Assembly (NCBI RefSeq): GCF_024721265.1
Contig: NZ_JAMXOC010000001.1
Span: forward strand, 186,001-250,000
From: Ohessyouella blattaphilus
GTDB taxonomy: Bacteria; Bacillota; Clostridia; Lachnospirales; Lachnospiraceae
Direction of reading: 5' to 3'
DNA length: 64,000 nt
Shown here: positions 18,016 through 28,353 of the stretch, one piece after another
Layout: every line of letters begins with the position of its first letter
Numbering within the stretch: the first letter of the stretch is position 1
The notes under the pieces: generated by a model
Databases searched by the model: none
What the model was told of the DNA's origin: nothing
The model's input: only the letters and a program-made list of their open reading frames with translations
Made by a program: the position numbers and the translations under genes

Positions 18016-19323
18016 CTAGTCTTCAAAAACCGTCTGTCCGGATACCGGTGTTTCTAGCGCCTTAAGTGCTCTTTCCACCAAATTTCGACGGATTTTCTTG
18101 CTTTCCACCTCACCTAAAGTGGGATCACCTAAGGGGTAGGGAATCCCTACCGCCGGAATAATCCTATTCGCGCCAATCGTTAAGGAGATTGGCACTACGG
18201 TACACATATGAACCACAGGAATTCCTACTCGTTCGATTTCCTTTACCATCGTTGCCCCGCAACGTGTACAGGTGCCTCAAGTAGAAGTAAGAATAACTGC
18301 ATCCACCCCATCCGCTAACAACTTCTTACTAAACTCTTCACCAAAAGCTTTGGCATTACCTGTGGATGTTCCCGTTCCCGTTGTGGTTACAAAGTAATTG
18401 GCAAGTTCGCCGATTCTCCCTTCTTTTTCCATTTCTCTAAGCACGTCTAAGGGTATTACTAGGTTAGGATCTTGCAAAACAAACTGCCTATCGTAGCCAC
18501 CATGGACGGTCATAAAATCTTCCGGACTCATGGTATCCATACCGGTAATGTCGTAGATTCCATAACGAGTTGCACTTGAGGACTCTATGTGATCCGGGTT
18601 CCCTTGAGGCACAATCCCCCCTGACGTAACAATGGCAATCTTTATCTTTGACACATCTGTCACCGCCCCGCACGGATCTACTCGGTCAAAGACAGGCATG
18701 GGATAATCGGTGTGATACTCTTCACCCTTTACCTTTCGCAGAAGTTGTTCAATCGCTCTTGTAGAAGCTCTTTCTTCGGCAAAATAATTCACCCGAATAC
18801 CTCGTTCTAAATATCCTTCTTCTGCTGGGCCTAATATTTCTTCACCATTGGCCAGCTTTTTTATCAAAGTCGTAAATACCGGCACTACTTTTCTCATGCC
18901 AGCTGCCGAATTCGGCGTCGCCACTACTAACATATCCTTACGGAACATGTCTGCCCCTGGGTTTTCCTCGTACATCCCTGTTAAAACAGGAATTTCTAGC
19001 TGCTCGGCAACCGCCTTAGCAATGGTCCCACAAGCCACCCCATATCGCCCTGCATTAAATGCCGGTCCAGCAACAAATACATCTGGTTCATATTTTTTTA
19101 CCATTTCCATGATTTCGGCTACCGCCTCATCAATATTCTCACCGAAATAATTATCGCCGCAAATAATTGTGGCTACAATCTCGTAATCTTCTCCTAGAGC
19201 CTGGGCCAAGCTAGCGCCTGGCCCGACCACACCCTCGCGCATCTCAGGACGAACATCGGCTTTTTCTTCGCCACCAATTCCCCCGAAGAATTGATTAATG
19301 TAATGAACGATTCTCTTACTCAT
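18016..19323 (-). CDS. grdB: Glycine/sarcosine/betaine reductase component B, selenocysteine subunit (in-frame UGA)
   Basis: A 435-residue selenoprotein that binds the amine substrate on the component-B pyruvoyl partner and passes a carboxymethyl group to the GrdA selenol. An in-frame UGA at 18279-18277 (residue 349) lies in TST-U-GTCTRCGA. The protein reads on as MVKEIERVGIPVVHMC to a TAG at 18016, exactly as in known GrdB/F/H. Automatic callers would split it into pieces of 348 and 77 residues. HYINQFFGGIGGEEKA, VAGPAFNAGRYGVACG and GNPDHIESSSA resemble glycine-type GrdB most. It starts 14 bases after grdE with AGGAGG. GrdA, GrdC and GrdD are not nearby, so sarcosine or betaine specificity stays possible. 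Confidence 0.93.
18250..18276 (-). promoter_or_regulatory. Candidate bacterial SECIS hairpin in grdB
   Basis: Immediately 3' of the UGA, in the mRNA sense, CGTTGC-GGG-GCAACG forms a perfect 6-bp stem whose loop begins 19 bases after the UGA. Outer ACC/GGT pairing could extend it. Position and G-rich apex fit SelB-dependent recoding hairpins. Identification is by position and fold only. Confidence 0.6.
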
Positions 19324-25490: not shown

Positions 25491-26910
<1,420 letters not shown>

Positions 26911-26921
26911 GTAAGCAATGC

Positions 26922-26950
26922 TTGAAATTAATCTCACCCTAGACTATACT
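26922..26950 (+). promoter_or_regulatory. MATE gene promoter embedded in the gdhA terminator
   Basis: TTGAAA (26922-26927), a 17-bp spacer, TATACT (26945-26950). The -10 sits in the loop of the gdhA terminator hairpin, whose left arm is the promoter spacer. Predicted start near 26957, about 17 bases before the MATE ATG, so the short leader contains the right arm of the hairpin and its GTGAGG ribosome site. Confidence 0.65.
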
Positions 26951-26973
26951 CTAGTCTAGAGTGAGGTTTTTTT
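26933..26973 (+). terminator. gdhA terminator whose right arm holds the MATE ribosome binding site
   Basis: CTCACCCTAGACT (26933-26945) pairs with AGTCTAGAGTGAG (26953-26965) with one mismatch, followed by seven T residues (26967-26973). The next base is the A of the MATE ATG. The only Shine-Dalgarno candidate, GTGAGG, lies at the base of the right arm. Confidence 0.8.
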
Positions 26974-28329
26974 ATGAGAAAAAGTGTAGATTTATTACAA
27001 GGAAATATTCTAAAATCATTAGTTCAGTTATCTCTCCCCATCATGCTGACTTCTTTTATCCAGATGGCGTATAACATGATTGATATGATCTGGCTCGGTC
27101 GCGTAGGAAGCGGAGCGGTTACTAGTGTCGGAACTGCTGGCATGTATCTGTGGTTTGCCGGCGGTGTCGCTTCTCTATCCCGCATCGGTACCCAGGTAAA
27201 ACTAGGTCACGCTCTCGGAGAAGATAAGCCAGACGCCGCCAGAACGTATATTGCCGTAGGCCTGCGTCTGGCATTCATTAGTGGCTTACTATACGGAGCC
27301 GTCTGTGTCCTTTTTGCCAAGCCACTCATCGGTTTCTTTCATCTCAGTAACCCTGAGACTATCCGCAACGCTATTCTCTATCAATATATCACCTGTGCCT
27401 TGATTGTCGCCCAGTTTTTAAACCAGGTCTTCGCTGGCGTGATGACCGCTATGGGGCGCAGCCTAAATATGCTACTAGCCACTGCCACTGGGTTAATCAT
27501 CAATATCGTCCTTGACCCCCTGCTGATCTTCGGCATCGGTCCTTTTCCCAAAATGGGCGTAGTAGGTGCGGCGATTGCCACCGTCTTGGCCCAAGTCGTA
27601 GTGTTATTCATCTTTATCTTCCTGGCCCGGGGAAATAAAGAGATGTTTTCCTTTCAGGCGATTTTCAAACGACAGGACCGTAATTACCAGCGGGAAATCA
27701 TCCGCATCGGTCTACCCACCGCCTTACAAAACATCTTCTTTACCTCCATTGGCATGATTATCGCTAGGCTAGTTACCAGCTTCGGCGACCACGCCATCGC
27801 TATCCAAAAGGTGGGCTCCCAAATCGAGTCTATCTCGTGGATGATTATCGAAGGTTTCGGTACTGCCATCAACGCCTTTATGGCGCAGAACTACGGCGCT
27901 GGCAATACGAAACGTATCCGTAAAGGCTACCACACCGCCCTTGGTATCGCCGTCTGCTGGGGTATCTTTTGCACTGCCCTCTTAGTGGGTCTCCCAGGAC
28001 CGCTGTTCTCTTTCTTTTTACCAGAGAAGGAACTGCTGTCTTTAGGGATTGACTACCTAGTAATTCTCGGCTTTAGTCAGATTTTTATGTGCATTGAATT
28101 ATCCGTAGCCGGCATGTTCTCTGGTCTTGGTAAGACGAAGCCGCCCTCTGTTGTCAGCATAGTTTTCAATGCCCTACGTATTCCCTTAGCGCTGATTCTC
28201 GTCCGCACGCCCTTAGGTTTAAACGGCATCTGGTGGGCGATTACGATTTCTAGCTTTATCAAAGGGATTGTTTTATGGATTTGGTTTCAAATTAGTTACA
28301 AGAATATCAACAAAGCCCCCAAGTCATAA
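26974..28329 (+). CDS. MATE-family multidrug/cation exporter
   Basis: A 451-residue exporter with two six-helix halves. The N-terminal NILKSLVQLSLPIMLTSFIQMAYNMIDMIWLGRVG and the second-half REIIRIGLPTALQNIFFTSIGMIIARLV are typical of MATE (NorM/DinF-like) proteins, which use H+ or Na+ gradients to expel cationic compounds. The ATG at 26974 directly follows the U-run of the gdhA terminator and uses GTGAGG as ribosome site. Its own TAA lies inside the loop of a downstream terminator. Substrate unknown. Confidence 0.92.
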   Translation: MRKSVDLLQGNILKSLVQLSLPIMLTSFIQMAYNMIDMIWLGRVGSGAVTSVGTAGMYLWFAGGVASLSRIGTQVKLGHALGEDKPDAARTYIAVGLRLAFISGLLYGAVCVLFAKPLIGFFHLSNPETIRNAILYQYITCALIVAQFLNQVFAGVMTAMGRSLNMLLATATGLIINIVLDPLLIFGIGPFPKMGVVGAAIATVLAQVVVLFIFIFLARGNKEMFSFQAIFKRQDRNYQREIIRIGLPTALQNIFFTSIGMIIARLVTSFGDHAIAIQKVGSQIESISWMIIEGFGTAINAFMAQNYGAGNTKRIRKGYHTALGIAVCWGIFCTALLVGLPGPLFSFFLPEKELLSLGIDYLVILGFSQIFMCIELSVAGMFSGLGKTKPPSVVSIVFNALRIPLALILVRTPLGLNGIWWAITISSFIKGIVLWIWFQISYKNINKAPKS

Positions 28330-28353
28330 GCGACTCGGGGGCTTCTTTTTTTT
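28314..28353 (+). terminator. Terminator overlapping the end of the MATE gene
   Basis: AGCCCCCAAGTC pairs with GACTCGGGGGCT (one mismatch) around a six-base loop that contains the MATE stop codon, followed by a run of T. It separates the convergent MATE and nifJ genes. Confidence 0.88.

Follow-up and report, generated by a model that had tools for sequence, protein, structure and literature searches.

The genes gdhA and a MATE family efflux transporter follow each other on the forward strand of the window, by which we mean the whole stretch of 64,000 nucleotides analysed here (Ohessyouella blattaphilus, contig NZ_JAMXOC010000001.1, positions 186,001 to 250,000). The genome around it measures 3.25 Mb and is 98.9% complete. 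Only 63 nt separate the stop codon of gdhA (26910) from the ATG of the MATE gene (26974). The features of the locus, in window positions, are:

25491..25519, + strand: promoter-like site of gdhA, TTGAAA-17-TATAAT, 11/12 in the promoter scan, putative function
25576..26910, + strand: gdhA, glutamate dehydrogenase family, 444 aa (Pfam PF00208 and PF02812)
26922..26927, + strand: TTGAAA, -35-like hexamer of the putative MATE promoter
26930..26968, + strand: hairpin from folding, 8 bp, a C.A mismatch and 8 bp, with the loop at 26947-26951
26945..26950, + strand: TATACT, -10-like hexamer of the putative MATE promoter
26957..26958, + strand: transcription start of the MATE gene expected from the distance to the -10
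26963..26966, + strand: GAGG, core of the ribosome site, in the right arm of the hairpin and 7 nt before the ATG
26967..26973, + strand: run of seven Ts, putative U-run of the terminator
26974..28329, + strand: MATE family efflux transporter, 451 aa (Pfam PF01554; TIGR00797 above cut-off)

The site TTGAAA-17-TATACT matches 10 of 12 consensus letters, its 17-nt spacer falls within the 16-18 nt of -35/-10 pairs of the sigma-A type, and it is likely the promoter of the MATE gene. The initial annotation had placed a promoter within the hairpin region, and it can indeed be read there directly, from 26922 to 26950. Its -10 had been assigned to the loop, but only four of the six bases lie there and the other two belong to the left arm. 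This arm ends at 26946, upstream of the predicted start at 26957-26958. The stem begins 19 nt after the gdhA stop and counts 16 bp in total around the mismatch at 26938/26960. As had been claimed, the right arm carries the ribosome site of the MATE gene, a modest one, and the T-run reaches the start codon: it adjoins the ATG directly, and its first two Ts are able to pair at the base of the stem. The start codon itself is supported by the alignments of relatives, which begin at residue 1. At the other end of the MATE gene, the stop codon lies inside a terminator-like hairpin (window 28312-28353, GCCCCC...GGGGGC and then a T run), making it another gene end that falls within a hairpin. Elsewhere in the window, at 18239-18276 on the minus strand, a SECIS_4 element (Rfam RF01990, 59 bits) points to a selenoprotein gene.

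The hairpin between the two genes is likely a terminator. It has the stable stem and the U-run of intrinsic terminators (16 bp and seven Ts) and scores between +20 and +36, depending on the position at which the stem closes, by the d'Aubenton-Carafa formula. A simple terminator scan listed only its minus-strand image, and a second scan recovered it on the plus strand. Such a structure is expected at this place, since a terminator-like hairpin lies within 150 nt of the gdhA stop in 20 of 28 relatives' loci, against none of 28 control windows; the sequences of these hairpins look unrelated. What is special about the window locus is that the MATE gene starts inside the terminator hairpin of gdhA. 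We shuffled the 42 nt upstream 5000 times, preserving dinucleotides and keeping the right part unchanged, and only 2 shuffles fold equally well, as do the upstream segments of 6 among 729 other genes, which may contain hairpins of their own. On the fold, this chance test and the terminator score, we assign the hairpin two putative roles, as the stem of a terminator and as a lid on the ribosome site.

Pairing of this strength is not the rule in the genome. Our own-genome sample covers 857 kb and 730 called genes, 142 of which have a ribosome site with a promoter-like site upstream of it, and the MATE gene comes first when the 142 are ranked by how well the ribosome site pairs with the promoter region of the same gene. 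Over these 142 genes the mean pairing is 0.396, at the level obtained with swapped regions (0.379, sd 0.016). Twenty genes exceed 0.9, against a null mean of 11.7 and a maximum of 18. We thus abandoned the idea that such pairing is a genome-wide rule: the averages fail to support it and there is no strong trend. Strong ribosome-site hairpins were only modestly above shuffles in the first sample of 464 kb, with 27 of 345 at -12 or below (shuffle mean 17.5, maximum 26) and 7 at -18 or below (mean 2.2, maximum 7). A T-run before an ATG is meaningless by itself, with 58 matches against 56 in the backward control, and several such places that we first took as starts turned out to be short frames, T-box terminators or weak folds.

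We modelled the two RNAs that could carry the MATE gene. In RNA read through from gdhA the hairpin has a predicted energy of -19.9 kcal/mol and the GAGG is unpaired in 0.3% of cases. Burial of the ribosome site in this RNA, which had been proposed from the outset, is nearly certain as a prediction, and the model has the read-through RNA form a stable hairpin whose 3' arm contains the site, as in the locks of the T4 I-TevI and sigG type. In RNA starting at 26957-26958 the GAGG is unpaired in 21-22% of cases and the six bases GUGAGG in 28-30%. To unfold the stretch that begins at the ribosome site and ends shortly after the start codon would cost 11.1 kcal/mol in the read-through RNA and 4.5-5.0 kcal/mol in the RNA starting at 26957-26958. 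The initial annotation had called the shorter RNA free of the hairpin and translatable. The model agrees with the former, but the latter is true only in relative terms, the GAGG being still 78-79% paired.

These observations fit a scheme in which the 63-nt gap would be one element with three jobs. The hairpin and the T-run would terminate most transcription of gdhA at about 26970. From a vegetative (sigma-A type) promoter inside the element, MATE transcription would begin beyond the left arm, near 26957-26958, and yield a message that contains the ribosome site yet is unable to form the hairpin. Polymerases reading through from gdhA would make RNA with the ribosome site locked in the stem, and the MATE protein would be made solely from its own promoter. 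The terminating ribosome of gdhA should not melt the stem, because 19 nt lie between the stop codon and the stem. The parts and their predicted folds are there; that they work together as terminator, internal promoter and read-through lock is in our view the best explanation and a fairly probable one, in which transcription start, termination and loss of translation on read-through would follow as described. Insulation of the exporter from gdhA expression, which the initial annotation proposed, may or may not be what selection has acted on; the hairpins kept at SpoIID-like genes of relatives and those described for sigG and T4 genes lend it indirect support.

Conservation of the layout in relatives, which the initial annotation had put forward as a check, was not borne out. 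We searched the gdhA and MATE proteins each in 397 genomes of the family, plus 39 named loci and 60 relatives. MATE relatives within the family reach 58% identity, and among the closest named matches are Robinsoniella (58%) and Marvinbryantia (51%). Eighty MATE loci were scanned, a set that includes near-duplicates (four strains of C. difficile) and some distant relatives, and 79 gave a start. None of the 79 has a ribosome-site hairpin of -15 kcal/mol or below. A single one reaches -12 or below, but without a T-run, so that the combination of ribosome-site hairpin and T-run is absent from all 79. Among the loci compared (flanks of 1.5-3 kb, scripted), gdhA and MATE occur together only at the window's own locus, and no shared synteny was seen when coordinates were compared by eye among the matches listed. 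A promoter-like site near the start was found in 41 of 77 MATE relatives and in 24 of 77 gene-internal windows, weak support that we count against the scheme.

To find further instances we surveyed ORFs of at least 90 aa whose ribosome site lies in the 3' arm of a hairpin of -18 kcal/mol or below, with a T-run before the ATG. The own-genome sample gave two cases, the MATE gene and a CmpB-like gene (PF06541) at C1:331562, the latter behind a gene that we take to be HydF-like. The hairpin of the CmpB-like gene contains TGATATACT, an extended -10. A -10 lies inside the hairpin in both cases; when upstream parts were swapped 30 times, such hairpins averaged 0.03 and never exceeded 1. The second case is not conserved: among 29 CmpB-like loci scanned, a hairpin of -15 or below was found in 1 of 25. 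Some look-alikes, presumably leuB, a DUF1062-like gene and glyA, resembled the layout but were rejected for the strength of the stem, the -35 or the position of the start. Also in this genome, at C1:281553 on the minus strand, a TATAAT downstream of a terminator-like hairpin stands just 7 nt ahead of an ATG, so that the message would have almost no leader; we assume that the gene is another MATE-like one, behind an aquaporin-like gene.

In ten relatives (1.2 Mb) the same survey gave five hairpins, where swaps yielded 0.17 on average and at most 1, and none of the five holds a promoter of the vegetative type. One (G060, minus strand, 76209) was discarded, since by eye the fold lies inside a longer gene, with the start within a MutS-like frame. 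The other four precede a SpoIID-like gene (PF08486), a SpmA-like gene, a SpmB-like gene and a Clp-type protease gene (PF00574). Pfam gives a Gate domain for the SpmA-like protein; the names SpmA-like and SpmB-like are provisional. A hairpin of -15 or below was present at 3 of 30 SpmA-like loci, not above the swap maximum of 3.

The SpoIID-like gene gave the clearest recurrence. It had a match in 59 of 149 genomes, and of the 30 loci taken 28 gave a start. The ribosome site lies in a hairpin of -12 kcal/mol or below with a T-run before the ATG at 12 of these 28 loci, nine of them at -18 or below, and 16 lack the hairpin. With upstream parts swapped among the loci, 4.0 on average and no more than 8 reached -12 or below, a null that is inflated because the arms of orthologs pair with each other through shared ancestry. 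Eleven of the 12 hairpins hold CATACAGT, CATATAAT or similar, i.e. a CATA-type -10, to the left of the ribosome site; L292 has a different kind of hairpin without it. The CATA-type elements resemble the -10 of sigma-E, and at L281, L282, L285 and L286 a GAATAAA or GTATAAA can be seen by eye 14 nt upstream of the -10. Transcription from such a promoter would start past most of the left arm. We further built a sequence pattern on the SpoIID hairpin form and ran it on the 397 family genomes. The loci with this form are:

L281, L282, L284, L285, L286, L287, L290, L291, L293, L296, L307 and L232:9272-9336: SpoIID-like genes whose ribosome-site hairpin holds a sigma-E-like -10, with a T-run adjoining the ATG
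L384, L393 and L394: hairpin form before SpoIVA, from the pattern search, L393 by sequence only
L390 and L229:10674-11387: hairpin form before a Clp-type protease

At eleven of the SpoIID-like loci and in G256, whose protein passes the cut-off of the SpoIID_LytB domain but not that of the SpoIID equivalog, the ATG lies 41-120 nt after an upstream stop. Judged by C-terminal sequence, at least three kinds of gene stand upstream, and the hairpin thus accompanies the SpoIID-like gene. Among the twelve stems (the eleven loci and G256), the three pairs immediately beyond the ribosome site vary in both partners: C-G to A-T or T-A, A-T to G-C, and A-T to G-C or T-A. This reading is limited to the three outer positions, as changes further in are partly a one-base shift of register, and a MAFFT alignment was kept out of the counting because it broke the register. 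The twelve stems were chosen for folding, and hence the count shows that pairing is kept up among them, not how frequent it is.

The pattern matched in 116 of the 397 genomes, with 147 matches against 52 in the backward control among the matches listed (counted by eye; a few overlap). Ten of the 30 loci examined have frames shorter than 60 aa, and nine have a longer frame and a fold of -16 kcal/mol or below; these nine include SpoIID (PF08486), SpoIVA (PF09547; at L394 above the TIGR02836 cut-off) and the Clp-type protease (PF00574). SpoIVA was found in 64 of 99 genomes and has a pattern match at its start in three: G092, which is the query itself, G027 and G099, by reading of the matches. The letters of the pattern matches suggest that more genera may have the hairpin form. 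The window's genome has no pattern match, no SpoIVA match and no SpoIID-like or SpmA-like match at 1e-20, hence its species probably does not form spores.

Might the gdhA-MATE layout reflect nothing but compaction? The terminator of one gene and the promoter of the next would then overlap in a short gap, and the hiding of the ribosome site would be a by-product without selected value. Where a terminator adjoins the ATG the ribosome site must lie in the stem, so the geometry by itself forces it into the arm. Moreover, the layout is specific to the window's genome among those compared, and the average pairing of ribosome sites with promoter regions stays at the swapped level. Yet the geometry recurs, with a promoter in the hairpin, in the same genome, and at the SpoIID-like genes it is kept with paired changes behind varied upstream neighbours, which compaction alone does not predict. 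We consider this explanation unlikely, if a serious one.

It is quite improbable that the promoter is a chance match and that gdhA and MATE form an operon, the transporter being expressed at a low level by read-through past an attenuating hairpin and from a weak ribosome site. gdhA does have a good promoter-like site, the promoter near the start is weakly supported in MATE relatives, and matches of equal quality occur inside genes; but sites of at least 10/12 at the matching distance are six times more common upstream of starts (24 of 728) than within genes (4 of 728 windows). An operon is also at odds with the nearly full burial of the ribosome site in the modelled read-through RNA, and no relative of the MATE gene lies beside gdhA among the loci compared. 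The hairpin could alternatively be incidental to an operator in the DNA, with a repressor bound to the 8-bp inverted repeat (26939-26946 and 26952-26959) over the -10 controlling the MATE gene. The inner arms are perfect, spaced by 5 bp and centred on the -10, as an operator might be, but the T-run and the placement of the gdhA stop fit a terminator, and no regulator gene was recognised among the neighbouring ORFs. In a search for exact copies the inner palindrome and the 111-nt region each occur once in the genome, so that they belong to no dispersed repeat either. Such control strikes us as very improbable.

The promoter-in-hairpin translational lock that we propose for the three-job element is already known from T4 and from sigG of B. 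subtilis. In the T4 gene I-TevI and other homing endonuclease genes, a ribosome-site hairpin forms on upstream transcripts only, and such hairpins are also named for soc, e and other late genes (PMC2988022). As described there, the late promoter lies within the ribosome-site hairpin in I-TevI, I-TevII, I-TevIII, segB and mobE of Aeh1, and, much as predicted for the window locus, transcripts from it start too far downstream to include the left arm, while on upstream transcripts the ribosome site is hidden. The window case differs in that the gene is bacterial and chromosomal, its promoter is of the vegetative type, and the stem is terminator-like with a U-run adjoining the ATG. In B. subtilis, sigG lies behind the spoIIG operon, and a large hairpin has been proposed to block translation of read-through from PspoIIG and to be impossible in RNA from PsigG (PMC5942855). 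The likeness is that the hairpin would form on the read-through RNA and not on that of the own promoter; in contrast, the word "terminator" is absent from the main text of that paper, and sigG is a sporulation gene whereas the MATE gene is not.

Protection from outside transcription would be shared with insertion sequences such as IS10/Tn10 and IS200. Their transposase genes are reported to be preceded by terminators that keep them unexpressed when the element lies in a transcribed region (PMC2965389). Those belong to mobile elements, and the likeness covers the terminators. RNA structure has reportedly been studied in Tn10 and IS200. Leader attenuators such as the T-box also place a terminator hairpin before a start codon and sometimes the ribosome site in its arm. 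One such case in this genome is L200 (minus strand, start at 1551), where a terminator-like hairpin bears the ribosome site and adjoins the ATG; we take the gene to be thioesterase-like and its leader motif to be T-box-like. Unlike these, the gdhA-MATE gap has no leader or sensor, its hairpin begins 19 nt after the gdhA stop, and a search of Rfam found no family at the site at gathering scores. In the open-licence literature, which lacks most subscription papers and is thus weak evidence of absence, we found neither a fusion of the lock with a U-run terminator adjoining the ATG nor the SpoIID case. The new parts are, on this basis, that lock and terminator are fused within about 50 bp and that the fusion recurs in Lachnospiraceae.

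Single-hairpin insulators might be a standing device of Lachnospiraceae, a wider reading that we hold tentatively and rate just short of an even chance. Within 40-60 nt the device would combine a promoter with a terminator-like hairpin whose right arm carries the ribosome site and whose T-run adjoins the ATG, such that only RNA from the internal promoter is translatable. In spore-formers a sigma-E-type promoter in the hairpin would guard genes of mother-cell sporulation against vegetative read-through (SpoIID-like genes, SpoIVA in some genomes and the SpmA-like Gate-domain gene in a few), while in the window's species vegetative promoters would play this part before the MATE and CmpB-like genes. 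Of the two, the putative device before sporulation genes deserves more attention than the gdhA-MATE case, as it rests on conservation and not on a single locus, and the conserved SpoIID-like cases make it testable. If the reading is true, a compact genome can stack the ends and starts of genes without leak, and a phage trick is a recurrent device of the host, recognisable from sequence alone. A single hairpin would then suffice to silence, during growth, sporulation genes that lie directly behind metabolic genes.
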